NCBI RefSeq assembly: GCF_002975435.1 | Contig: NZ_PCPT01000002.1 | Coordinates: forward strand, 310,001 to 374,000 | DNA length: 64,000 bases | From: Arthrobacter sp. MYb227 | GTDB lineage: Bacteria; Actinomycetota; Actinomycetes; Actinomycetales; Micrococcaceae | Reading direction: 5' to 3' | Shown: positions 1-15,174 of the stretch, one piece after another | How positions within the stretch are numbered: the stretch's first letter is position 1 | Layout: each line of letters begins with the position of its first letter | Position numbers and translations under genes: made by a program | Notes under the pieces: model-generated | Database searches by the model: none | What the model saw: only the letters and a program-made list of their open reading frames with translations | Told to the model about the DNA's origin: nothing

Positions 1-2
1 CC

Positions 3-2384
3 TTTAATAAACGGCAACACAACATTGCCCTGCAAGAGAAGATCAATCGTACTCACGCTTCAATTGAATTTAAGTTTTGCAATCTAAGCGCAGTGCTTTT
101 AGATTTGGAAAGAACTTATATCAATGGATATAAACCTCGAGATCATTACCAGCAAGCGCTTAAAGACCTTATTCTGAGGCGTTTAGATGAATTTCCTAAG
201 GCATCTACTGAGCAGATGAACAAGAGAACTATGCCGGTCGAAGACCCGAATTCTAAAATCATAGATTCTCAGACAGGAGCGTCTTCTAGCAAGTCCGTCA
301 ATGAGGGTTTCCTTCATTCAAAGATTGCTTCAGATTCCATCACTCTAGATGTCAAGCAAGATAAGTTCAGCAAACCGAATGATATCTGGGATGCGTTGAC
401 TGCGCTTTGGGAACGCTCAACGGGAGGCTCCGGTGTTGCTGATAGACCAGAAGACAGTCACACGAGTCGTATGCCGATTGCTCCTCGTCCTGCTGGAGTA
501 GAAGAAGCTTCCGTGTGGTTTGGTCAGAATCTGAAGGATGCGACGATCCCAAGGTTTCTATTTCTTGTAGGTGGGCCTGGAGCAGGTAAATCGCATACTG
601 CAAGCTACTTGGTCAAAGATCTCGAAAAAATTTCGCCGGGTGATGATGGGCTTGCCCACCGGAAATATACGTACAAAGTAGGAAACCATCGCTTAGACCT
701 AATAAATGACGCCACGATTCCGTCCGATGGAAGGAATTTGGGACCATTGGTCCAAGACCTGCAGGAATCCATCGCTGATGAGAACCACGTCATAGCTTGT
801 GTGAATAGAGGAGTGCTCATTGAAGAAACTAATCATTTCGCGGGGAAGGACCTCGCTGAGCTAACGCCAGGCGAAGTGATAACGAAATGGCTTGCCTCAA
901 ACGAGGCAGGATTTCTTCCAGACCAGGAGTGGAAGATATACAGCGATTTGAATCTGGACTATATTCAGTCAGGATTCCTTTCACATGGATCCCGAAAGAT
1001 CGCTGAGATTGTAGCGGTCTTTGTAGATGTTTGTTCGTTATTCGAGACAAAACCGGTTCCACAGCTTGACCACAACAATGAATCAGCGATGACCTCCTAC
1101 CAAAGTACTTATGAAATCGCTGATTTTTTTGCTCGATCAGATATTCCAATTGAAGATTATCCGGCAGGTGTTCTTTTTTCAAAAATAGTTAAACAGTTAT
1201 CAACGCTTGATTTTTGCGATGTAGATGAGAGGTTTAACCCAATCGCTGCGAATATCGCTGCGCTTGGTACTCTGCCCACTCAACGATCACTGTTATCGAT
1301 AGTTAGAGCGTCAGAGATAGTCAGTGGCCAACGATTTACATACCGCGAGGTATGGGGCGTAATTGCACGAATAATTGTTGGCGGTCTTACTGAGACCATC
1401 GAAAGTTCGAACCTTAAAGAACACGTGTATCAAATGAAATCCGATAATCGAACGGAGATCGATCACTTTAAACACATGAGGAAGCTTGCTGCAATTCGTT
1501 ATAATCAGTCGCTCTTTGGAATAGGTGATATTACGAGCTCAGCGAAAGATGATTCAAAGCGAAATCCAGTAACACGATTGACTAGCAGGGTTGACCCTAT
1601 GCGCGATGCAGTGGCCGGCAAACGCTCATCAGGCAAGAACAAGGGCTGGGCTACACCTGTAACCGAAGCTTTCTCAGGCCCGGCGGTGGCCGGTTCCCCC
1701 CTGAAGACCCTCGAAGAAATCCTTGGTCCTGAGGACCTTTTTTCCGAGATAGTTCAACCGTTCGACCGAGAGCTTGACCACGCCTTTGCGACAGTGATGA
1801 GTGTCGATACGTTGCCAGAGTCGCAGAGGTTTGAGTTCATTCATTGGTATGGCGCGTATCTCGGAAGGCTCTATGCAGTTACCCACGGAATACCTGCATT
1901 TGAACGAGAAGTCGCGCTCTGGATCGAGGCTTGGTATTCAAAGCCCAATCTTCCGATGGAGCTCGAAAGCGGGTTACAGACTCTACTTCGACCAAAGAGG
2001 AATCCTCGCAAGGAGAAATCGGCGTCCATGATCCCGCTGTTTGATAGTAGGACTAACCCGATCGTGGGTAACCAGATTGATCCAAAACTTGCGTTGCAAA
2101 CTGTTGAACCGGACATGCGGACGAGGGTCGACGGAGAAGAATTATTTCTCATATTAAGTGAAAAAACTGAAATTATTGCTTTAATGCCATTAGATTTTGC
2201 ATTTGTTAGAGAAGCGACATCATGCAGTCAAGATTATGCCGGTATGACAGAACTTACTGAAACAACTTCTCCAAGACTTGAAAGATTTAGAGCTTCATTA
2301 TTGGTTCCAAAATTTCTTAAACATGAAAATTATCGAATAGTTGATGGTCTTGATGATAGATTCATTACTCTTAACGAAGATTGA
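3..2384 (+). CDS. DptF/DndF-like P-loop ATPase (5' end outside window)
   Basis: First gene of a three-gene operon. A Walker A motif (GGPGAGKS, Lys codon at 588-590) follows a hydrophobic strand, and about 50 residues later come an NDAT segment and a hydrophobic VIACVNRGVL strand, an arrangement I associate with DptF of phosphorothioation-dependent restriction. A GTG at 93 could serve as start, but the same frame stays open without a stop back to base 3 and gives plausible protein, so the gene most likely begins left of the window. Its visible length of about 794 codons is longer than the usual DptF of 500-600 residues. The family assignment rests on the P-loop, the gene order and the partners, not on an alignment. 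The likely role is the NTPase of a restriction complex. Base composition is AT-richer than the catabolic genes to the right, as expected for an acquired island. Confidence 0.6.
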   Translation, partial: FNKRQHNIALQEKINRTHASIEFKFCNLSAVLLDLERTYINGYKPRDHYQQALKDLILRRLDEFPKASTEQMNKRTMPVEDPNSKIIDSQTGASSSKSVNEGFLHSKIASDSITLDVKQDKFSKPNDIWDALTALWERSTGGSGVADRPEDSHTSRMPIAPRPAGVEEASVWFGQNLKDATIPRFLFLVGGPGAGKSHTASYLVKDLEKISPGDDGLAHRKYTYKVGNHRLDLINDATIPSDGRNLGPLVQDLQESIADENHVIACVNRGVLIEETNHFAGKDLAELTPGEVITKWLASNEAGFLPDQEWKIYSDLNLDYIQSGFLSHGSRKIAEIVAVFVDVCSLFETKPVPQLDHNNESAMTSYQSTYEIADFFARSDIPIEDYPAGVLFSKIVKQLSTLDFCDVDERFNPIAANIAALGTLPTQRSLLSIVRASEIVSGQRFTYREVWGVIARIIVGGLTETIESSNLKEHVYQMKSDNRTEIDHFKHMRKLAAIRYNQSLFGIGDITSSAKDDSKRNPVTRLTSRVDPMRDAVAGKRSSGKNKGWATPVTEAFSGPAVAGSPLKTLEEILGPEDLFSEIVQPFDRELDHAFATVMSVDTLPESQRFEFIHWYGAYLGRLYAVTHGIPAFEREVALWIEAWYSKPNLPMELESGLQTLLRPKRNPRKEKSASMIPLFDSRTNPIVGNQIDPKLALQTVEPDMRTRVDGEELFLILSEKTEIIALMPLDFAFVREATSCSQDYAGMTELTETTSPRLERFRASLLVPKFLKHENYRIVDGLDDRFITLNED

Positions 2385-2394
2385 AAGTGATAAA

Positions 2395-3825
2395 ATGACT
2401 TCTGATGCCCGTAGATCATTATTTCTGTCGATGAATAGACCACAATACGTATCGGTTCCTGAAGGTTTTATTTCGTCTTTGGCTTGGAAACTATTTGATT
2501 TCAATGAGCCTCCCACGTTAGGCGCGGGAAAGAAACTTGCTTTGATGTACAAAGTTGAGAAAGATACCAAATCTACTAATCTTTCTGTAACCACGACGGC
2601 TCCAAAAGGACATGACGGACACAGCGCCTTCGGCGAAGTCCTCAAGAACTCGGGAATCGGGCCATACAATTTAGACCCGATACTTATCGCTACTGCAGTT
2701 TCAAATAGCATTACTGGAATTCGCGCTGAGAAAAGCACCATGCAAGCTGCCAGCCCATTAACCCCAGGGATCGCTTTGCTGCAAAACATGAGGGGAGTTC
2801 AAAAGTCTCAGAGCCCACCGGATTTAGCGGGCATCATTGAAACACTCTACCGTTTGGGTGCACCTCACGGATCTCAATCTCAAAGTGGAGTCGCAGAGAG
2901 ATGGTTGGACGCTTCCAATCGAAGACTTGGTGCGGATGCATTACTGGCTGCCATGGATAAATCAGCCAAGGAAAACCTCTTGCTGAGTGGTGTCAAATTG
3001 AAAGTTACTGAGTTGCCTTCCGAATTTATCGGAGGGCTTTTTCCAAATACACCATTTACATGGTTCGCCAGAATATGGGATCGTCTTACCGGGCCTGACT
3101 GGGTAGATGCACTTCCTGCGAGGGTTTGGGTGGATTGGGCCACGACCGTGTTGCGGCTTGCCTATGGAATGGGCTTTCTGTGGGAGGCAGCTTGGTACGA
3201 AACTTTTGCGAGAAGAATCCTAAGAGGTGAACCATTCACCCGTGAGCAACTCCTCAAGGAGATTCCTGCGGCCCTGCCTTGGAAATCTTCACGGTCCACG
3301 CAGTCGGTGCGGGATGTTGCCTCGGTGTTGCTTCGGAGAGTTCATGTCGGCGGCGCCGTAAGGAAGCTTGTCGACAGCTGGCTGTCCACAGCAGAAACTA
3401 AATCAGGCAATTTATTGGCCACAGAAACCGCAATCACACGAATGATGGGTGACGGCGATTTTCGAAAGCAATTGACAGTTGCATTGGGAGGCCAGATGAA
3501 AGCAGCTCCAAATACGTGGGAAGCTGTAAAATACGCATTGCTGACTCGTGATGTTGCGGGGCCCTTTGCCGACTATTACGGGATGCTTCGACAAAATGGT
3601 CGTTTTCTTACAGTTTCCCCTGGAACAGAATGGATTGCCGTAGTGGCTAGTCTTTCCTGCGATCGGCCGGGTGGCGAAGCGAATGTGGGGCGCCTAATGG
3701 GTGATCTTCATGAAATGGGGCTGAACCCCCAGCTGTCAGATGTTATTGAGCTTTTGGAGCGTGCTGGGTTAGCTCGTGGCAGTGCAGACGCCGATCAAGG
3801 CGTCCTAATAAAGAGCGCGTTCTAG
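2395..3825 (+). CDS. DptG-like component of restriction operon
   Basis: Second gene of the operon, 476 residues from the ATG at 2395, which lies 10 bp after the stop of the ATPase gene. An upstream in-frame ATG at 2341 would overlap that gene by 44 bp and is less likely. The protein has no P-loop, nuclease or membrane motif that I can recognise. It is rich in Trp and Leu around residues 215-280 (FTWFARIWDRL, WVDWATTVLRLAYG), which suggests a helical packing domain. Its position between a P-loop ATPase and a giant HerA-type ATPase matches dndG/dptG, whose product is also poorly characterised. I call it DptG-like on position and size only; an unrelated structural subunit is equally compatible. 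Confidence 0.45.
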   Translation: MTSDARRSLFLSMNRPQYVSVPEGFISSLAWKLFDFNEPPTLGAGKKLALMYKVEKDTKSTNLSVTTTAPKGHDGHSAFGEVLKNSGIGPYNLDPILIATAVSNSITGIRAEKSTMQAASPLTPGIALLQNMRGVQKSQSPPDLAGIIETLYRLGAPHGSQSQSGVAERWLDASNRRLGADALLAAMDKSAKENLLLSGVKLKVTELPSEFIGGLFPNTPFTWFARIWDRLTGPDWVDALPARVWVDWATTVLRLAYGMGFLWEAAWYETFARRILRGEPFTREQLLKEIPAALPWKSSRSTQSVRDVASVLLRRVHVGGAVRKLVDSWLSTAETKSGNLLATETAITRMMGDGDFRKQLTVALGGQMKAAPNTWEAVKYALLTRDVAGPFADYYGMLRQNGRFLTVSPGTEWIAVVASLSCDRPGGEANVGRLMGDLHEMGLNPQLSDVIELLERAGLARGSADADQGVLIKSAF

Positions 3826-3838
3826 AAACGAGGAAAAA

Positions 3839-6800
3839 GTGATCGGAACAATACTCGCAAAATGTCTTCTGGGCATTGAAGGGCTGAACGCTGTATACCT
3901 TCCTGAAGGCGTACCAGTTTCTGTAGGCGTGGAGCTAGTGCGACGAGCCAATGAAGAAGAAACTAGAGCAGATAATTACTCTATTTTGGTCGTGCCTGAA
4001 GGAGTTGAAGAAGGAATGTCGTCCGCGCAGGCTTTGCAATATCGTCAAGGAAATCGATTAGCAGTTGTTGTTGGGCGACATCCTGATCTAGGTTCCTTTA
4101 ATCAGTCTTTTCAAGAAGTGCTGGGGTTGAATTATCCAGATCAGGCTAGAAACAGCGTAACGCTTCAGAATCTTTCTAAGATGGCGGTCGAAGAAGTGAT
4201 ATCGACTGCAGGCGTCGAAGCAAGCGAATTTTGGGATCCTAGTTTTTCACGGGAGTTTGTAAACGGATGTCTAGAACGTTCCGCAAAAATCCATGAAAGC
4301 TTGCTTGGGGGAACCGAAAGCTGGAATGCATTGTGGTTCGAACACGTAAATATAGGTTTTGAAAATCTTGCCGAAAAATTATCACAGATGTCATCGTCAG
4401 GAATTATGTTAGATGATTTCTTTAAAAATTACACTTATGCTTCATTTGGATTTTCTAAACCAAATCCTCTATCAAAAACAATTATTTCAGCTGCGGCCTT
4501 CGTGGATGCATACAAGACCTACTGGCTAGATCAGCAAACTATTCTGGAATCTACCCACTATCTTGAGCACCACCCCGAGTGGGGTGGCGTCGGTGCACAC
4601 CCAATGTCCACTGTTAACTGGGACAACTTTGATCAGACGCAAGCATCTGTTGGAAATCTCAGCCTCGCATTCGTAAAATATATGAATTCAGATCCTGTTG
4701 CACTCGATTCTTTGGTGCATTTTACTGATTCCCAGTTCCTTAATCCAGCAAATAGCAATTCAAAGAATCCGAAACTTACTCCATTTGACGAATTATTTAA
4801 TTCTTTAAGTATTGGTAATGACTCAGAGTTAGGTCCTTTTATTGCTCAAGCAACAAGAGCTGACTCTAGCGTTCAGGTCATATCTGAAACTTTAAGAATT
4901 AAGATCCCTGCAATTTTGGACCATTTCGATGGTAAGGATTCAGGTACAAAGGCAGATCTACGTTCAACTACGGCCAAAACTTCGTGGAGAGGCGTGCTCG
5001 AAATCGATGAAAACGGGGAAGTCTGGGCATGCGGCAATATTGAATGGAATATAACTAAATCTACTAATTTAGTTACCCCTAAAAAGATTAAACTTGTGGT
5101 TAGCGTTCCGTTAGATGACCCTCTGCAAGGGAAAATCAACTTGAATGCTTCCATCGAAATTTCTATGGTCGTAATGGAGCAAAGCGGGATATTGGCGGTT
5201 CCTCTGCGCAAAAATGGCTCTATGGGCAAACCTACGCATTGGTTTCTGGATTCGGATAACCAGGAAACAACCGCGATAGAGCTTGATTCCAACATTGAAC
5301 GCTATCGATATGTGGCCTGGACCCCGGATCGTTTTCTTCACCCAACGCTTGAAGCACACCCGATGGAGAAACTTCACAACCGGCCGAATTTTTTTGTCGC
5401 TGAAGAACTCACCACCGAACTGAGCCTACTTATCGTTGGGGCACAAACGTTTGAGTGCCGTTCGGCAGAGAGTAGTAAAGCTAGCCACTCGCCCATAGTT
5501 ACGGCAATTTCTAATGGCCGACCATCACCAGATCCATTGAGTTCCGTCTCGATGAATTCGGTACGGGGTATATATGAAGCTTGTTTTGTTCGTGAACACG
5601 ACAACGTAAAGTTTCTTGATTCCTTGGGGCATCTGGTTGTTGCGCAAGATAGAGAAGTAGATATTTTGCCAGACCTTGAAGCCCATTCTCAGGGACTCCT
5701 TATGTCTGGCAGCTTGCGTGGAGTATGGAATCAAGTCTCAGATTTCTCGGTACCTCAAGAAATTCTGGAATCAGAGGAAGCTCGTGAGTTTCGACGCTGT
5801 TTCTTGGGACTTGGGATAGAAAAAAGGATTGATTCAACAACCGGAACGATGAGCTGGCTGCCATCGAAAGCTTCCTGGCGCGAACTTTGGGAAGATGACC
5901 AGGGCCGAGCTTCATTGGAAAGCTACCTTGAAGCGTACGCTGAATTAGTTTTGGCCGCCCGACGAATCGGTAACGCTGCCGCTTTGTTCTGGGCAACCTA
6001 CCCTTTTTCTATCAGTGTTTGGCAGACTTTGGAAGCAACAAGTGTTGCCGCGGTACTATTAAGCCCGTTGCACCCGATACGGTTGGCATGGCTGGCTGGA
6101 GTCGAATCTACTCTCTGGCATTCAACATTGTCTAAGCATTTAGCTGGGACTGTTGAAGGATGGAATATTCCGTTCATTGGACCGCCAGAATCAGAAGATG
6201 GACGACTGATCGCTGTGCCCCTAGAAGCCGGTGAAGATCAAGTATTTCTTGGGTGGTCAATGCTTGTTCGGACTTCGATCGAGGTACCTAGAATGCTAGT
6301 AGCTCCTGAGCGGGCCGGAAACTTCACTTTGCCTGGTACAGCCGTAAGCGGCCTTAACTCAACGGCAGTTGCCGCAGCGCTGAAAAGTTACCGGCGTATG
6401 AATCCGCATGTCTCAACCATGACTATTGATCTGGCTGCTAATTCAGGAACAGCCAGACTGGGAGAAATCGACGAGGCTGTTCTTAGCGCAGTGCGCGAGT
6501 GGACTTCTAATAAGAATTCGCCGTTGCTTGGGGGAGCCCGAATTTGGGACTCCATTAAGCGTTCTGGCAAACCGCCCCAAGAGATGATGGCACGTTTAGT
6601 GAAGGCGACCAACGACGTTCCCCTCACTTGGTCGCGATATGTGCCGGATAACGCAGACAGAAAGCCATGTAATGTTCGAATTCTCCAAGATTCGGGCGTA
6701 CGCGTAAAAATTAGTTCGAAAATAAATGGATCTCGACTGGGCACGATGGGACTCACACCCTTGCGTCGTTTTGAAGCATCCCTCGAACACTCCGGTGATC

Positions 6801-9430
6801 ATAAGACTTCGATTTCTTCACCTACACTTCGTGAAAACCATGGGTGGGAACCACTGACTAGAGCAATTCGCGAGTTCGAAGGTGGAATTTCAACCACCAC
6901 GCTCATTAACGCAAAGCTATTTCAGGCTAATTTGACTGATGCTTCGGCAGATTGGACGGTTTCTGGCGAATCGCTCATAAGCCCAAGTGCAATGTCTGCG
7001 ATGGTTCAAGAAAATGGGTCCGGCGATCAAATGCTGTGGGAGTGGAGACCTCCATTCTTAGAGCCTTCGGGTGAAGTTCCAGCGTTGGAACGTCGCCCGT
7101 TCATTTCAATTGCGCGAATTCCAGAGGGATTCAAGGCCCAAATACGGAATCTTTTGAGCAAAGCTCAAGGAACTGAAGCGAGCGATTCATTAGTTCGATC
7201 GCTGCTGAGCACTCTCGGTGCTCGTGGCGTGGGCTTATCATCGATGCTTTCGATGGGAGGCACACACGCAGCAGGTGCACTTGGCTTCTATCTCGTATTT
7301 TCATTAATGGAGAAGCTTCAAAGTAACGAAGACTGTACATTGGTGCTTCCTATTGACGCGTGTGATTCTTTCCTTAGAGCATTGGCTAGCGGGGCCGATC
7401 ACGCAGACATTGTGCGTCGTGCTGATCTATTGCTGCTAAGAATCAAGGATAAATCGTTGACACTAGCACCCATCGAAATCAAGTTTTACGGACTTAACGC
7501 AGAAAGTAACGGCGGGGTGCTGCCCGAAGTCTCTGACGCATCTATGAAAGAGCCACTTGAACAGGCAATGACGACAGCCAAGCTATTGGATGGCGTGGCA
7601 GAAACGTGGAAGAACATTAGGGTTTCAAATAATGCGAGCGATATTGCCCTATGGAGCAACGGCATAGCTGCACTCACAGAAGCAGCGATGCGCCTTCAAC
7701 CAGCCAGTGCACATAACCCTGATGCCATGGCCAAAGCACTTTCGTCCCTTGCCGAAGGGAAATCTGATGTTGTTGTTGGCCGCCCGTTAGTTGCCTATTT
7801 CAAATACCAAGCAGTTTCCGCTAACGGTAACAGTTTCCATACCAGAATCAGCGTGCCCGAGTTACAGACGGACAAATCGTTTGGCCTTCTAGCGACAAAT
7901 CCGGAAGCCGCGTTTGCTGCCTTAAGATTGGATGGAAGTAACTTGGTAGAAGAATGGTCGACACTTGTGGAATGGGCACTTGAAGACCGATCTAACCAGC
8001 TTGCCGAAGACAGTACTTCAGACGCCGCTCCGCATTCAGTCTCTGATGGCTCTAACGAGGATTCTACAAGCAGTTCGGGAAGAAACCCAAGGGAACAACG
8101 CAGCATTGCGAACGAGCCGACGTTACCTGAAAAAGTATCCGCTGAAGTACTTCCCAAACCAGAATCAAAGATTGATGAAGAAGGAACGGCTTCCGAGATG
8201 GATATGGAAACGCACGGTGAAGAGCCTCATTCACGTAAAGAAAGGGAGCGCGAAGTAGAATATGTCGATCTAGAAGTACTACCCAACTTCGAAAATGGTA
8301 TTCGAGCTCCTGGAATAAAGTTTCCTGTCGGCCGTGTTATCGGAACAGCGGGTGAACGCTGGGCAGATTTCTGGCCTGGAAACACGGATCTCAATCAAAT
8401 GAATATAGGCGTTGTTGGAGATCTAGGGACTGGAAAGACTCAACTTGTGCAAGCACTCATATACGGTCTTCGAAAAGAGGCTACCGTCGCCCAAGAGACG
8501 CCACTTTCCATGCTGGTATTCGATTATAAGCAAGATTTCCAGGAGCCTGAATTTTTAGAGGCAGTTGGTGGAAAAGTTCTTCGAATTAACCAGATCCCCT
8601 TGAATTTCTTCCAGCTTAGGGAGGGATACACGGCGATGGCTGCTAACCAGCGGACCAATGAGTTTATTGATGTGTTGGACAAAATCTACGGGGGCATGGG
8701 CCCTGTTCAGAAAGACCGACTCTCCACATGCATTATGGATCTATACAGGGAAAATAAGAAAAGCGCTCCGACAATTGGTCGAGTCCTTACGAGATACCTT
8801 GAGCAAGACGAAAAGCCAGATTCAGTAACAGCAATACTCAGGAAATTTGTTAACGCTGAGGTATTCAGTGAAGATCAAGAATCAATCAAATCATTCGAGG
8901 AGTTAATTGACAACAACGTTTTGATAGTTGCACTTAACGACTTCGGTGTCGATGATGAAGGTAAAAATGCGCTAGTAATTATGTTTTTAAATCTATATTA
9001 TGATTACATGTTGAAGTCAAAAAAGTGGCCCTTTGTTGGCGATGAACCACAGTTGCGCCGCCTTAATTCATTTCTGCTTGTTGATGAAGCAGTAAATATT
9101 ATGAAATATAAATTTCCTGTTCTGATGAACCTTTTATTGCAAGGGCGACAGTTTGGGTTTGGTGTGATGCTGGCATCGCAGTACCTGTCGCATTTCAAGA
9201 AAGATCAGGAAAACTATGGAGAACCATTATTGACCTGGTTCCTTCATAAGGTGAAGACTGTAACTGCAAAAGAGCTCCAGCAAGTCGGACTAAGTGAGAA
9301 CTCACAGGAGCTAGCCGTGAAGATGGCGAATCTCGGAAAGCACCAATCCATCTATCGGTCGTTGGGCTCGAATGGAATAATCATCGAAGATATTCCGTTC
9401 TTCCGCATCATGGCCGAAAAGAACAAGTAA
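3839..9430 (+). CDS. DptH-like giant ATPase with nuclease-like motif
   Basis: An 1863-residue protein starting at GTG 3839 behind a good ribosome site (GAGGA). The N-terminal two thirds are of unknown fold. Around residues 1196-1215 a PD-(D/E)XK-like pattern is visible: Asp1196 ahead of a hydrophobic strand, then Glu1213-Ile-Lys1215 (PIEIKFYG). Residues about 1350-1450 are polar and low in complexity (Ser, Glu, Lys rich), probably a linker. The C-terminal 400 residues form a HerA/FtsK/VirB4-type motor: Walker A GDLGTGKTQ near residue 1527, a strand LVFDYKQDF, Walker B FLLVDEA near residue 1744, and a sensor-like LLQGRQFGFGVMLASQ. Length and layout match DndH/DptH, the largest subunit of the phosphorothioation restriction module. 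The motor probably moves or opens DNA, and the nuclease-like segment may cut. It is probably cytoplasmic, as no signal or membrane segment is seen. Confidence 0.6.
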   Translation: MIGTILAKCLLGIEGLNAVYLPEGVPVSVGVELVRRANEEETRADNYSILVVPEGVEEGMSSAQALQYRQGNRLAVVVGRHPDLGSFNQSFQEVLGLNYPDQARNSVTLQNLSKMAVEEVISTAGVEASEFWDPSFSREFVNGCLERSAKIHESLLGGTESWNALWFEHVNIGFENLAEKLSQMSSSGIMLDDFFKNYTYASFGFSKPNPLSKTIISAAAFVDAYKTYWLDQQTILESTHYLEHHPEWGGVGAHPMSTVNWDNFDQTQASVGNLSLAFVKYMNSDPVALDSLVHFTDSQFLNPANSNSKNPKLTPFDELFNSLSIGNDSELGPFIAQATRADSSVQVISETLRIKIPAILDHFDGKDSGTKADLRSTTAKTSWRGVLEIDENGEVWACGNIEWNITKSTNLVTPKKIKLVVSVPLDDPLQGKINLNASIEISMVVMEQSGILAVPLRKNGSMGKPTHWFLDSDNQETTAIELDSNIERYRYVAWTPDRFLHPTLEAHPMEKLHNRPNFFVAEELTTELSLLIVGAQTFECRSAESSKASHSPIVTAISNGRPSPDPLSSVSMNSVRGIYEACFVREHDNVKFLDSLGHLVVAQDREVDILPDLEAHSQGLLMSGSLRGVWNQVSDFSVPQEILESEEAREFRRCFLGLGIEKRIDSTTGTMSWLPSKASWRELWEDDQGRASLESYLEAYAELVLAARRIGNAAALFWATYPFSISVWQTLEATSVAAVLLSPLHPIRLAWLAGVESTLWHSTLSKHLAGTVEGWNIPFIGPPESEDGRLIAVPLEAGEDQVFLGWSMLVRTSIEVPRMLVAPERAGNFTLPGTAVSGLNSTAVAAALKSYRRMNPHVSTMTIDLAANSGTARLGEIDEAVLSAVREWTSNKNSPLLGGARIWDSIKRSGKPPQEMMARLVKATNDVPLTWSRYVPDNADRKPCNVRILQDSGVRVKISSKINGSRLGTMGLTPLRRFEASLEHSGDHKTSISSPTLRENHGWEPLTRAIREFEGGISTTTLINAKLFQANLTDASADWTVSGESLISPSAMSAMVQENGSGDQMLWEWRPPFLEPSGEVPALERRPFISIARIPEGFKAQIRNLLSKAQGTEASDSLVRSLLSTLGARGVGLSSMLSMGGTHAAGALGFYLVFSLMEKLQSNEDCTLVLPIDACDSFLRALASGADHADIVRRADLLLLRIKDKSLTLAPIEIKFYGLNAESNGGVLPEVSDASMKEPLEQAMTTAKLLDGVAETWKNIRVSNNASDIALWSNGIAALTEAAMRLQPASAHNPDAMAKALSSLAEGKSDVVVGRPLVAYFKYQAVSANGNSFHTRISVPELQTDKSFGLLATNPEAAFAALRLDGSNLVEEWSTLVEWALEDRSNQLAEDSTSDAAPHSVSDGSNEDSTSSSGRNPREQRSIANEPTLPEKVSAEVLPKPESKIDEEGTASEMDMETHGEEPHSRKEREREVEYVDLEVLPNFENGIRAPGIKFPVGRVIGTAGERWADFWPGNTDLNQMNIGVVGDLGTGKTQLVQALIYGLRKEATVAQETPLSMLVFDYKQDFQEPEFLEAVGGKVLRINQIPLNFFQLREGYTAMAANQRTNEFIDVLDKIYGGMGPVQKDRLSTCIMDLYRENKKSAPTIGRVLTRYLEQDEKPDSVTAILRKFVNAEVFSEDQESIKSFEELIDNNVLIVALNDFGVDDEGKNALVIMFLNLYYDYMLKSKKWPFVGDEPQLRRLNSFLLVDEAVNIMKYKFPVLMNLLLQGRQFGFGVMLASQYLSHFKKDQENYGEPLLTWFLHKVKTVTAKELQQVGLSENSQELAVKMANLGKHQSIYRSLGSNGIIIEDIPFFRIMAEKNK

Positions 9431-9488: not shown

Positions 9489-11120
9489 TTATATCTCTAG
9501 AAGTTGGCCACTTATCACGGCTTCTAGTCTTACTGCTTGTTCGGTTGGAGTGGCCAACCGGAGTAATTCTTGAACTACTTCGCCAGCTTGTTTGGCCAGT
9601 AGGGGAGGCACCGCATTTCCTGCTTGAGTATATTGCGGCACTTCAAACTTACGGCTATCACCTCCTGTAGTGACTTTCGAGCGAAATTCGAAAGAGTCAG
9701 GAAAAGATTGAATACGGGCCACTTCCCGGACGCTTAATGTTCGTAAATGATCACTAGAGTAGTGACAGCAGTCATCCGGAATTGAGAGTGCCGCAGGTGA
9801 AGGGCGGTCAGCAATAAGTGCTCGCTGCGAGTGCTTTTTCGTCCTGAGCGAGACTACGAGCGAAACAATTTCATTAACGTCAGCAGGCAACCTCAGTTTT
9901 TGTCCTTCAGCGAAAAGGAATTTGTGATGGAGCAGTGGCGAAGCCAGCTGCGAGAGAGTCACCTGATCTCCATCTTTGAACGCTTTGGCAATTGCTCGGG
10001 AAAGCGATCGATCGCCCAACCCTTCAAGTACCTGATAGAGCCTGAATCGCTGCTGCACGCGTAGGCCATGTTTACGTCGTTCAATATTTTTAATCTTTTG
10101 ACGAGGTACAAACTTACCGAAGGTTTCATTTATTCTATTTACATAGATTGATGGCTGTATGTTTTTATTTGTTATATTTTCAAGATCTGAAATTGCGTCT
10201 TCCGCAGTAGTCCAATTGTTTTTATCTGGCGTGGTTAAAAGATGACGAAAAATGCTGCCATCAAACAGATCTTGATCGGAAGACTGCGCGACATCCCAAT
10301 ATCGCAATAGATTCCAATCGAAGTTCTTGTCGAAGGTGTCGAGTGCTTGCTGAAGTGCACTCCGTTCGCTGGCTGTTATTTGTTGTTCAATAATGCTCTC
10401 AGCGAGGTCCTTCCTGACGGCAAACATCAAGAAACGTGGCCTGTTCTGTGCAACTCCTACATACTTGGCGTTTGCATGGATGCAAATGGGAGCATAGCCG
10501 ACTGCAGTAAATGCTTTGGCGACTTCTCGCCATGCATGAAATTCTTCCCCATCTTGACGGAAAGCTCGTAAAATTCCACTTACGTTTTCTAGCAATGCGA
10601 CTTTGGGACGAACTAACTTTACAAAACTTGCAAACTCCCAAGGAAGCTGGTTCCTATGGTTGTCGCGTTGTCGGAGGCCAGCCATGCTGAAACTCTGGCA
10701 AGGCGGACCACCTGATACAAGATCCACGGAGAATCGATTCCGACGTTGTGGGTGTTGAATAAATTCTTCTTTGAGATGCTTGTTCAACGAAACGATGCTT
10801 CCGACAACAAGTTGCCCCTGTCCTGTCAATCCAGAAGCGGGTATATCTGTGTATCCTCCCGACGCCCAATCAGGGTAATCATATGGATTTTCACGGAGTC
10901 TGTCTTTTAGTCTCGTGCGAGGATATTTCGAGCCAAGCCACAGTACTGATTTTGCTGTGGTAGTTGAACTCGCCTGAAGGTCAACGTTCAGGTGGTTGTA
11001 CGCAAATGTCTCTGCAGCCATAGGGGAAAGCTCGTTGGCCATGGCAAGTTCGAACCCTGATGCATGTAGTCCTAGAGACATACCGCCGCATCCCGCGAAC
11101 AGCTCAATGAAGCGACTCAA
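9489..11120 (-). CDS. C5-cytosine DNA methyltransferase
   Basis: Transfers a methyl group from S-adenosylmethionine to C5 of cytosine in DNA. The ordered Dcm-family motifs are all visible: motif I (FIELFAGCGGMSLG, residues 4-17), motif IV with the catalytic Cys141 (GGPPCQSFS), motif VI (ENV, 178-180), motif VIII (QNRPRF) and motif X (QAGNAVPP near the C terminus). At 543 residues it is longer than minimal members, with an insertion between motifs I and IV and a long variable region that would set specificity. The start is TTG at 11120, supported by a strong GGAGAAGG 4 bases upstream and by motif I beginning at residue 4. It faces the DptFGH-like operon tail to tail. Inference: it may provide the self-protecting mark for that system; a solitary methyltransferase is the alternative. 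Confidence 0.92.
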   Translation of the reverse strand: MSRFIELFAGCGGMSLGLHASGFELAMANELSPMAAETFAYNHLNVDLQASSTTTAKSVLWLGSKYPRTRLKDRLRENPYDYPDWASGGYTDIPASGLTGQGQLVVGSIVSLNKHLKEEFIQHPQRRNRFSVDLVSGGPPCQSFSMAGLRQRDNHRNQLPWEFASFVKLVRPKVALLENVSGILRAFRQDGEEFHAWREVAKAFTAVGYAPICIHANAKYVGVAQNRPRFLMFAVRKDLAESIIEQQITASERSALQQALDTFDKNFDWNLLRYWDVAQSSDQDLFDGSIFRHLLTTPDKNNWTTAEDAISDLENITNKNIQPSIYVNRINETFGKFVPRQKIKNIERRKHGLRVQQRFRLYQVLEGLGDRSLSRAIAKAFKDGDQVTLSQLASPLLHHKFLFAEGQKLRLPADVNEIVSLVVSLRTKKHSQRALIADRPSPAALSIPDDCCHYSSDHLRTLSVREVARIQSFPDSFEFRSKVTTGGDSRKFEVPQYTQAGNAVPPLLAKQAGEVVQELLRLATPTEQAVRLEAVISGQLLEI

Positions 11121-11353
11121 ATTACCTTCTCCGACCTAAAACGATGCATTCTAACGGGTATTCACTATAGCTGGTATGGGAAGCTCTGAAGGTAGTATCT
11201 TCGGAGTACAAGTATCGTGTGCGACACCGCGTGGTGTACCGAATTCCTCGTCACCCACATATATCGAAGTCGCTGAAACTGGTTTTTGGATATGAGCTTA
11301 GTGACCATAAGCCGCCCCTTCACAGATGCCCTCCTGAAAGTGTCAGCTTAATA
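11121..11353 (-). promoter_or_regulatory. Leader between sigma chimera and methyltransferase genes
   Basis: A 233-bp gap between the sigma chimera stop and the methyltransferase start, both on the minus strand. It contains the GGAGAAGG ribosome site (11125-11132), AT-rich -10-like elements read on the minus strand (TATAGT, TAGAAT) 25-55 bases before the start, and a small inverted repeat ACACC-GCGT-GGTGT at 11224-11237 that could be an operator. No clear -35 or terminator was found, so read-through from the sigma gene is also possible. Confidence 0.3.
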
Positions 11354-14300
11354 CTAGTCTTCTAGAATCTGTGTACTAGTGGATTCACGTAAAAATATTA
11401 GAGCGGCTTTTTCAAGCTGCCTTATCCGCTCGCGTGTGACTCCGTAAACCCGACCAATTTCATCGAGCGTTTTTGGTTGGCCGTCAGCTAAACCGAAGCG
11501 CAAAGCGACTATGCCTGCATCTCGTTCCGAGAGGGAGTCGAGGATACTCCGGATCTGTTTGCTGCGTTCTTCGATGAGAAACACTTGCATGATGTCAAAA
11601 TCTTCGGGATCGTAAAGTACGTCACCGATAACGATTGTTTCCTCTTCATCAAATTCGTTCAGTTGGGCGCTCAATGAAATCGGTTCCTGAGCATCGTATG
11701 ACATTACCTCAACAATTTCATCTGGCGGTAGATCGATAAGATTTCTGGAGAGTTCCTCGGGGGTTGGTTCGCGACCAAGATCCTGCAACATCTGACGCTG
11801 CACTCGTGCAATCTTATTAATAACTTCAACCATGTGTACCGGAATACGGATGGTACGGGCCTGATCGGCCATAGCGCGAGTAATTGCCTGACGAATCCAC
11901 CACGTTGCATAGGTGGAGAACTTAAAGCCTTTGGTGCAGTCGAATTTCTCGACCGCACGAATCAAACCAAGGTTGCCTTCCTGAATCAAGTCAAGGAAAA
12001 GCACGCCGCGGCCCGTGTAACGCTTTGCCAGCGATACAACGAGTCGAAGGTTCGCCTCAAGCAGGTGGTTCTTGGCGACCTTTCCATCATGGATGATCTG
12101 CTCATAGTCCCAGCGCAGGCGCTTATCCATCTTGCCATCATCAGCCATGAGCTTCTCGTTGGCGAACAGGCCCGCTTCAATACGAAGTGCAAGGTCAACT
12201 TCCTGCTCAGCATTAAGCAGAGCAACCTTACCGATCTGCTTCAGGTAGACCTTGACCGGGTCGGCCGTGGCACCGGCGACCACGACCTGCTCCTGGACGG
12301 CGTCGTCTTCGTCTGCCGTGAGTACGAAACTTTTGGCGCTCTCCTTGGACTTACCATCTGAAACATTGATGTCATGGTCGTTGACGCCTTCATCGGTCGT
12401 CGGTAGCGGGGTGTAGGGATTCTCGAGCGGATGTCGAATTGGCTTCTTTTTTCCCGATACAGCGTCACTGCGACAAGGACTCGTTGACTTTATTCGTTCG
12501 ACAGGTATACCGTCAGCTTTTATTTCTAGCTCGTTAAAATTGTGAGCTGAAATGTCGTACTGGAAAATACTCGAAATTTCCTCAGGCACTAAAACTTGTT
12601 TTAGTGAATCCATAAGTGTGGAATGGACCAGTCGGGCTAACGTTAGATCGGGAGAGTAGCGTTCTTCAATTGAACCAGCTTGTAACCAGGTAAAAGCCAG
12701 TCCCCATTTTTCCTCTGGGTTTAGCTGAAACTGGGCTGAGCCATTCAAATTTGAGTACACAGTGGCAACGTAGTCAAGCACTACCTGATTAAAAATAGTA
12801 GTGCGGAAATCACCTTCATAATTTCTTAAACTTCTAATATGAAGCTCTGCATTAGGTTTCAGCGTATATTGATAGTGGATCTCGCCCAATTGTACTTCGA
12901 AGAAAACTTCGTGGACGCAATCTGGAGTAATTTCATCGGACCAGGGCCAAAAGCGGCTGAATAGATTGTTTCTGTCTGTATCACCGGGTGTCGGCGTCGA
13001 ACCTCTGACCGGATGAGCCGCCATAAGTGTTGACGAAACTATTTCGTTCCCGGAGGACTGTAGGTCTGATGCTTGATGACAGCTGTCGGGTAATTCATTA
13101 AAAGATTCAATGCGCAATAAGCCTTCAGGACGTTCCTCCTCGCCTAATTCAGCTCTAGTCGATGAATTGAGTCGCCTATCTTCCGCAACGGAAATGTAAT
13201 CGGAACGCTCGCTGCTGATCGTGGCCTGCTTGCAGGTATCTGTCCTCTCTAGCTGCGCGTCCACGATGCTGGGGTAGTCTTTATCGCTGTCTATGAAGGG
13301 TGTCGATTGAGTCCTATTAGAGGTACCGACATCTTTCGAGTGGACACAGACTTGTTGCGGGTGTTGGTGAATCTCGCTTTGATTACTTATCTCACCATTT
13401 GGTGATCTGAAATATGAGTGTGGTGCCAACTGTGGAGCGGGTTTGTGGGCAGGTATGTCTTCACCGGGAGCATCGGAATCAAACCGTAATTTCTCAGAAG
13501 TATTGAACTCAGTACTTCTTGACAACTTCGTGAGTCCAATAGGAGGCACGTGTTCTGAGTCGTTTGTTGGAACGATGTGCCTTTTTGGAGCGCTTGCGTT
13601 TAGACCATCTTCTAAAAGCATGCGCACGTGATTCTCGATAACAGCTCTATTTTGAAAGAATGAATGGTGGGTCTGGCTGTTTGAGTTCGGAGATGAAATC
13701 CCTAGAAAAGCAGTAGTTTCATTGAAAAACTGTTCTTTTGAGAAGCTTGGTGTGTCAACGAGATTTGCTTTCGATCGCGAGATCCATCTGTCCCATTGCT
13801 CCTCCAGATCAATTTCTAGAGTGATTAGCTTTTCCCACGAAGCGAACCAGACGGCAACAGCTTCAGTGTAAGTGGTTGTCGGACACGATTTATCAATCAA
13901 GGAGTCGAAGAGCGAATCTCGAGCATCCGTGTGTAGGGAAATGTGCTTTTGTAAGTGTTTAAAGAATTTTCTTGAAGATGATTGAACTTTTCGACTTGTT
14001 CCGAATCTTGAAGTTCTTATATCATCAAAATTGAGGTAGTTTTTGAATGATGATTTATCTGAGATTATTTCATAATCAAAAATATTTAATCTTAGCGAAA
14101 TTAGAGAATTGTTGGAAACATTACGTAGAATATTTTTTGATTGTTTGGAGTTTTCTAAGATTAATTCTCGTTGAGAACCCCCCTCGAACCTAAGTGCTCC
14201 AACTGACTCAAAAGTATCGGCCGGCGGCCACCACAAATGGTTGCTTGGCACAGGAAGATCCCAAGGTGGCATCCATAGGTGATCTGGGGCGGCGGCTAGG

Positions 14301-14356
14301 GGGGTAGCATGCCAAGCCTCGGGCGCTACCCATTCCCAATTGCGAGAAGACAGCAA
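11354..14356 (-). CDS. SigA-like sigma factor fused to large novel N-terminal region
   Basis: The C-terminal 300 residues (from about 699, [17 protein letters not shown]) are a primary-type sigma-70 factor very like actinobacterial SigA. Region 1.2, the region 2 core ([30 protein letters not shown]), region 3.0 and the region 4.2 helix-turn-helix ([20 protein letters not shown]) are all present. Region 3.2 is diverged (Asp/Glu rich) and the C-terminal tail differs from housekeeping SigA. The first 690 residues are unlike any sigma N terminus I know. They begin with a Trp-rich stretch (residues 6-45, with two HLW-x-PP-type repeats), continue through polar segments, and contain a possible beta domain around residues 475-610. 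The coding DNA of the N-terminal part is much richer in AT than the sigma part, so the gene looks like a chimera. TTG 14356 is the only near-start codon after the in-frame upstream stop; its ribosome site is weak. The role is inferred: recruiting RNA polymerase under control of the N-terminal domain. Confidence 0.85.
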
Positions 14357-14670
14357 ATTACTTTCAGTCCGATCGTAGTTTTGGTTTGCCCAATTGTCGT
14401 TGATCTATAGAGAGCTTACGCGGTGTGTTGCATTTCATTGGATCTGTTGCCTCAATTTGGTATTGACTGTATTGCATCATTAGAAGCTCCAGAAAGTTCG
14501 TTAGATACAAATGCTGGTGAAACTATCCACAGCTTTCATTGGAATGAGTGTCTTATTTCAACAAGCCTCACTCATAACTCATGGTTAGACGACTCTCGGG
14601 TACCAAACAGTCAATGATTGCCATTACTACTGCAGCTTCCGCAGGGGAACGAGCCGTCTATCAAAACTTG
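14357..14670. other. Island/chromosome junction region, no gene seen
   Basis: A stretch of 314 bases between the start of the sigma chimera and the end of the Lrp-type gene. A 64-codon plus-strand frame (14423-14617) has no ribosome site and no recognisable product. No tRNA, direct repeat or integrase remnant was visible here, although base composition changes across this stretch. Confidence 0.4.
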
Positions 14671-15174
14671 CTACTCCTGCTCTGCCTGAACCCCGTTGGG
14701 CTGCGGCTTGAATGCGGTCTGAGGACCAACACCCCAGCCATAGGCAAGCTTGTGTGCCTCGAGGACGAAGAACGTCTCAGTGGAGGCAACGCCCTCAATC
14801 AGCTGCAGGCGGTCGTAGAGCAGTTCGGTGTAGTGCTCGAGGTCGCGGCAGACAACTTCAACCATGACGTCGTAGCTGCCGGTGGTTAGCACCACGTAGC
14901 TGGACTCGGTGAGTTCGGCCATTTCCTTGCATACCTTTTTGGCCATGCCCGGAGTGCAGCGAACCCCAATCAAGGCAAGGCGATCAAAGCCAATGGATAG
15001 TGGGTTGGCAATGCCAACAATTTGCAAGGTTCCCGATTCTTCAAGGCGTTGTACGCGATAACGCACGGAAGAGGCGGGGATGCCTGTCTCCTCGGCTATT
15101 TCCTTGAAGGATTTGCGCCCGTTGAGTTGCAGGGCGGCAATAAGCTGACGGTCAATATCATCAAGTTCAGTCAT
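14671..15174 (-). CDS. Lrp/AsnC-family transcriptional regulator
   Basis: A 167-residue regulator with an N-terminal winged helix-turn-helix (DDIDRQLIAALQLNGRKSFK, then IAEETGIPASSVRYRVQRLE, residues 4-45) and a C-terminal RAM ligand-binding domain (LTTGSYDVMVEVVCRDLEHY region). Members form octamers or hexadecamers and sense amino acids or related metabolites. The start ATG at 15174 has GAAGGAA 6 bases upstream. It lies beside, and in the same direction as, the aldehyde dehydrogenase gene, and a strong hairpin separates the two, so it is probably its own transcript. Context suggests that it controls the adjoining polyamine-type catabolic genes. Confidence 0.9.
   Translation of the reverse strand: MTELDDIDRQLIAALQLNGRKSFKEIAEETGIPASSVRYRVQRLEESGTLQIVGIANPLSIGFDRLALIGVRCTPGMAKKVCKEMAELTESSYVVLTTGSYDVMVEVVCRDLEHYTELLYDRLQLIEGVASTETFFVLEAHKLAYGWGVGPQTAFKPQPNGVQAEQE

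Follow-up and report, generated by a model that had tools for sequence, protein, structure and literature searches.

Within a 64,000-nucleotide stretch of the Arthrobacter sp. MYb227 genome (contig NZ_PCPT01000002.1, positions 310,001 to 374,000; hereafter the window), one gene encodes a second SigA-like sigma factor, fused to a large N-terminal part. The gene is a mosaic with two junctions: its polymerase-binding core matches the sigA of its own host, and lies between an orphan N-terminus and a divergent tail (Table 1). As judged from sequence comparison, such a mosaic was most likely produced by recombination with host sigA.

A sigma factor gene of three parts

The fusion is encoded by one uninterrupted frame of 1000 codons, starting from TTG. 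Over its nucleotides 1–1950, the two other forward frames contain 32 and 45 stops. A codon model trained on neighbouring genes of the AT-rich island in which it lies favoured the coding frame in eight of ten blocks of 100 residues, the misses being blocks 201–300 and 301–400. Regions 1.2 (residues 699–732), 2 (765–835), 3 (844–902), and 4 (939–990) each scored over the Pfam cut-off, so that all four regions of a group 1/2 sigma-70 factor are present. When the host genome was searched for sigma-70 region 2, 15 matches were obtained, and the top two were the ordinary SigA (399 aa, on another contig) and the fusion. The first-pass annotation of this DNA had described an additional SigA-like factor whose large N-terminus is foreign to SigA, set in an AT-rich, restriction-type region adjoining a methyltransferase, and this description held. 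It had also named an assembly error as an alternative. A chimera with sigA is unlikely, since about 12% of the bases of the core differ from host sigA and the site lies within a 759-kb contig.

The base composition changes twice along the gene. For residues 1–650, the GC content and the GC content of third codon positions (GC3) were 0.448 and 0.42, and for residues 651–870 they were 0.539 and 0.623. The GC3 of the tail (residues 871–1000) was 0.431, AT-rich like the N-terminus. For comparison, GC3 was 0.41–0.46 in four other island genes and 0.59–0.74 in six chromosomal genes of the window. An AT-richer N-terminal part and one junction near residues 650–690 had been proposed earlier. The position was right, as residues 1–650 are AT-richer than residues 651–870; the second junction, near residue 869, had been overlooked.

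The same boundaries appeared when the protein was compared with host SigA. The core (residues 672–868) was 93.9% identical in amino acids (185 of 197 residues) and 87.6% in nucleotides, with identical codons at 120 of the 177 shared residues; the same codon measure for 11 SigAs of other genomes was 52–56%. The 132-residue tail (869–1000) showed 54% identity, and 21 of 67 codons were identical. It keeps the motif GVTRERIRQ in region 4, identical to SigA. The finger region and the C-terminus of the fusion are altered relative to SigA.

Origin of the core and the tail

A DNA tree of residues 699–868 (38 rows) placed the fusion as sister to host SigA, with support of 100/99, among the SigAs of its genus. 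In the tail tree, which had very long branches, the fusion and host SigA were not joined. As a control for the contrast between core and tail, 33 ordinary SigA rows were compared at the same codon positions, giving 528 pairs that are not independent of each other. From core to tail, the fraction of identical synonymous codons dropped by 0.36 for the fusion, and the maximum among the control pairs was 0.258. None of the 386 control pairs with a comparable core had a tail as low as that of the fusion. Hence, in view of the codon identity, GC3, the core tree, and the control pairs, the presence of a host-like block in the fusion is firm. The tail is likely of separate, older origin.

Substitution rates were also determined. 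Between the core and its own SigA, the nonsynonymous rate (dN) was 0.018 and the synonymous rate (dS) 0.67, comparable to a SigA–SigA pair of the genus (dN 0.019, dS 0.875); the dN/dS of the core was about 0.03. Such a low dN beside a high dS indicates that the core is constrained as a functional sigma would be, and that it was not copied very recently. Between the tail and its own SigA, dN was 0.455 and dS was saturated.

The N-terminal part

No Pfam match was found for the residues ahead of 699. Searches of the N-terminus in PHROGs, Pfam, NCBIfam, PADLOC, and PDB sequences produced no credible match (best PDB E 0.057). A lone PADLOC match (E 0.062) did not recur when residues 1–690 were searched alone, and no NCBIfam or PADLOC model matched in that search. 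This profile search had been proposed earlier, and its outcome is consistent with orphan status. Relatives of the N-terminus were found in none of 395 other genomes of the order and none of 393 of the class (the samples overlap, and only close relatives are within reach of the pattern scans). In the genome contigs, 26 pattern stretches were obtained, none related, and the plasmids, phages, and viral contigs yielded no relative within reach of the searches made. Matches in other genomes (21 of 58) were all confined to residues 610–702, mostly the SigA part. The claim that the N-terminal two thirds are not an ordinary SigA region is thus borne out in the genomes and libraries searched.

By eye, the N-terminal part may be divided into domains and a linker at about 260–470. 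AlphaFold2 models made without an alignment had a pLDDT (predicted local distance difference test) of 32.8 for residues 1–700 and 34.4 for residues 471–625, too poor for use.

Other sigma fusions

A second fusion of this kind was found in Arthrobacter zhaoxinii (977 aa, L071:1337-4270, minus strand), beside a methyltransferase and the same operon type as in the window. It comprises a superfamily 2 (SF2) helicase, then SigA regions 1.2–4, then a weak KOW match. By BLAST, its similarity to the window protein was significant only over the sigma part (57%), and the two N-termini showed no similarity. Its core was sister to the SigA of its own host (99/95 in the DNA tree of the core), and its core–tail difference of 0.25 was reached by none of the 528 control SigA pairs. 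That two hosts each carry a fusion whose core is matched to their own SigA was the least expected finding of this work. Near the A. zhaoxinii operon there is also a NERD protein with helicase matches (L071:15915-17588).

Helicase–SigA fusions were also present on two plasmids of about 430 kb, pACHL01 and pYJN5-1, of Pseudarthrobacter and Paenarthrobacter, which also carry dnaE and ssb nearby, plus CHAP-domain genes. A further one was found in a genome of the same family (G023). Within L051:7260-17075, the latter gene adjoins UvrD and PD-(D/E)XK nuclease genes that resemble AddAB.

A tail profile (A3) was built from three known fusions, and their top rank in the scan is therefore by construction; fusions with SigA-like tails may escape it. 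The scan gave at least the long frames named here; those of G769, G828, G735, and others lie outside the set of fusions analysed. Long sigma frames in G443, G430, and G587 were, by eye, ordinary SigA in GC-rich DNA. In a viral match (L090), whose frame is 513 aa long, the SigA part looks ordinary.

Neighbouring genes and related loci

The methyltransferase gene sits between operon gene 3 and the sigma gene, downstream of the latter in the same direction, with a gap of 233 bp. The start of gene 2 probably lies further in than listed, since its homologues align from residue ~25. Gene 3 also matched the solved DptH structure 7es4 (E 3.5e-60). From about 14.7 kb onward, the right flank corresponds to that of a sibling genome (G002); no match was obtained for the left (island) side. 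Among 14 genomes of the genus, a close Lrp was present only in G002 (86–87%; next best 37%), and no clean empty site was found. A UvrD-like superfamily 1 helicase (799 aa, L009:17122-19521) lies immediately left of the island.

Table 1. Coordinates of the fusion gene, its parts, and other features (window positions unless a locus is given).
Feature	Position	Strand	Basis or remark
Fusion sigma factor	11354..14356	-	1000 aa, TTG start
Orphan N-terminal part, residues 1–670, AT-rich	12347..14356	-	No family or homologue found; composition
Host-like SigA core, residues 672–868, from just ahead of region 1.2 into region 3	11753..12343	-	Identity to host SigA
Divergent tail, residues 869–1000, remainder of region 3 to region 4	11357..11752	-	54% identical to SigA
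DNA cytosine-5 methyltransferase, 543 aa	9489..11120	-	Pfam PF00145, E 1e-51
Operon gene 1, ~830 aa, weak P-loop matches	1..2384	+	Frame opens ~99 nt upstream of the window; homologues found
Operon gene 2, 494 aa as listed, no family	2341..3825	+	Homologues found
Operon gene 3, 1863 aa, DndH-like, C-terminal HerA/FtsK translocase	3839..9430	+	PADLOC DndH, E 1.8e-62
Lrp/AsnC regulator, outside the island	14671..15174	-	First gene of the right flank common to one sibling genome
Plasmid helicase–SigA fusions with helicase-associated (HA) domain near the C-terminus	L091:13980-16952; L092:13980-16949		

When genomes were scanned with gene 3, 15 loci were obtained, two of which are short pieces of one metagenome-assembled genome and may be one locus. 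Together with G052, these make 16 loci besides the window (G215 and L073 being one record). The inspected flanks reached up to 10 kb from gene 3 in both directions; four loci had shorter flanks, and G052 somewhat longer ones. A sigma gene was present in the fetched flanks of one of the 16, that of A. zhaoxinii; hence the suggestion that the fusion might always neighbour this restriction operon did not hold. Viral contigs scanned with gene 3 gave no match.

Two further observations concern these loci. In four of them, the methyltransferase is followed by a gene of about 137 aa (L066:17084-17500, L069:17157-17567, L072:17156-17566, L075:17208-17618); that of L069 is a Vsr gene (Pfam E 1.8e-32), and the other three are alike by eye. 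In G215, an 1847-aa helicase (L025:8064-13607) lies directly upstream of the homologous operon, and by eye it has the look of Druantia DruE.

Possible role of the fusion

In the stretches generally assigned to polymerase binding and promoter reading, the fusion departs little from SigA. From EKFD to VEV, about regions 2.3–2.4, one Y to C change is the sole difference. The sequence thus does not point to a new promoter specificity. Redirection of RNA polymerase, as suggested in the first-pass annotation, would be possible. Since the promoter-reading stretches are nearly SigA's, a private set of promoters is disfavoured, and a protein that would go where SigA goes is favoured.

These SigA-like stretches, together with the exchangeable N-termini and the host-matched cores, lead us to favour, tentatively and at somewhat less than an even chance, a protein that docks on RNA polymerase and carries an exchangeable module, its core being matched to the host by recombination with sigA. 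The fusion would be a functional sigma that docks on the host RNA polymerase and brings its N-terminal module to transcription complexes. There, beside the genes for cytosine methylation and DndH-like restriction, the module, whose counterpart in A. zhaoxinii is an SF2 helicase, may act as a sensor or effector, for example by spotting invading DNA as it is transcribed or by stalling its transcription. After a transfer, gene conversion from the new host's sigA would let the docking surface go on fitting that host's polymerase. A bolder extension, which on balance is unlikely, would be a class of immunity-linked proteins in which the SigA domain is purely a docking plug, the module is freely exchanged (helicase plus KOW in A. 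zhaoxinii), and sigA gene conversion refits the plug time and again as it enters new hosts.

Several results weigh against a docking role and against the origin by recombination on which it draws. One of the 528 control pairs had a tail equally low in identical codons. The approximately unbiased (AU) test on the tail did not reject a single clade of the fusion tail and its own SigA (p 0.229), so that fast divergence of the tail after a single duplication is compatible with the tree alone; the same test on the A. zhaoxinii tail likewise gave no rejection (p 0.153). The KOW match of the A. zhaoxinii fusion lies below the Pfam cut-off (E 0.002). The G023 fusion showed no contrast between core and tail (51 of 94 vs 33 of 59, p 0.87). 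Within the fetched flanks, a sigma gene adjoins only two of the 17 operon loci. The two plasmid fusions are, by annotation, without evident defence genes within 14 kb, and SigA fusion therefore seems not to be confined to defence. Lastly, the N-terminus matched no known fold in the family and sequence libraries searched, the single-sequence models being too poor.

Behind the docking role we place a dedicated island regulator, a possible but somewhat unlikely alternative in which the sigma activates the methyltransferase gene, the restriction genes, or both, and the N-terminal part serves as a signal receiver or built-in inhibitor. Such a regulator would fit the position of the sigma gene, which is next to the methyltransferase in each of the two loci carrying a sigma gene, and lies upstream of it in the window. 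The mzaA sigma factor, moreover, is part of a published defence system, MZA (PMC9523054). However, the near identity of the promoter-contacting stretches to those of SigA leaves no separate specificity visible, and a promoter scan limited to 11000–14800, an interval that excludes the DNA ahead of gene 1, gave two sites, where shuffled sequence averaged 4.6. Further, 15 of the 17 loci had no sigma gene in the fetched flanks.

A mobile-element sigma of plasmid or phage origin, serving its element and being a passenger beside restriction genes in a variable region, is improbable. It would accord with the helicase–sigma fusions near replication genes on the two Arthrobacter-group plasmids, and with the fusion gene lying just outside the stretch common to the sibling genome. 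On the other hand, two sigma fusions with unrelated N-termini stand beside the same operon type, and no integrase or phage family was matched by Pfam among the 13 window ORFs (open reading frames; within 93–23568) and six upstream ORFs scanned. Finally, a decaying gene, in which a duplicated sigA was joined by chance to other coding sequence, would explain the rapid change of the tail, the altered finger region and C-terminus, and the N-terminus without homologue in the searches made, but is very improbable given 1000 codons free of stops, the low dN/dS of the core, and the intact GVTRERIRQ motif.

If the docking role is true, restriction-type immunity would be tied to the transcription machinery in a way open to direct test, and the two species would suggest that a sigma gained by horizontal transfer can be adapted to its host through recombination with the essential sigA. 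With core, tail, and module exchangeable, clean constructs could be made for studying the role of defence-associated sigma factors such as MzaA.

Comparison with known systems

Like actinobacterial SigA/HrdB, the fusion has a core (672–868) nearly identical to host SigA. It differs in its divergent tail and in an orphan N-terminus of about 650 residues, in place of the short lysine/alanine-rich one of host SigA. With the helicase–SigA fusions (A. zhaoxinii, pACHL01, pYJN5-1, and G023) it shares a SigA-type domain preceded by a large N-terminal part that is not sigma, and with that of A. zhaoxinii also the position beside a methyltransferase/DndH-like operon. Unlike these proteins, which have an SF2 helicase as their N-terminus, it gave no SF2 helicase match before residue 699, and so does not class with them. 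Their C-terminal extras vary: KOW (weak) in A. zhaoxinii, an HA domain in the two plasmid proteins, and none found in G023.

The operon resembles DndFGH in that the last of its three genes encodes a giant DndH-like protein with a C-terminal HerA/FtsK domain, and differs in the adjoining cytosine-5 methyltransferase. Genes 1 and 2 gave no PADLOC match to DndF or DndG (gene 1 was searched without its first ~64 residues, and distant homologues may escape such a search). The host genome had no TIGR03183 (DndC) match, so the locus does not class as a Dnd phosphorothioation system. PMC10853773 describes HerA/FtsK capture systems and a sigma-like helix-turn-helix inserted in some gammaproteobacterial DndH proteins; the DndFGH-like operon belongs near those systems.

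The first-pass annotation had held that no described defence system is built this way. In general terms this went too far: the MZA system (mzaABCDE) includes the sigma factor MzaA (PMC9523054), and the idea of a sigma within a defence system is thus already in print. Among the literature matches listed (titles and openings of abstracts), no case of a sigma–defence fusion, a sigma–helicase fusion, or sigA conversion appeared. MzaA, like the fusion, has a large part ahead of its SigA-type sigma domain, of about 430–460 model positions (NCBIfam NF041931, length 726; PADLOC PDLC02203, length 683). Neither the methyltransferase nor any of the operon genes 1–3 gave a Pfam match to the MZA partners. 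The fusion itself scored 311.5 bits against a curated MzaA cut-off of 800, and matched in its sigma part only. What appears to be new is a sigma fusion beside restriction-type genes that is distinct from MzaA.
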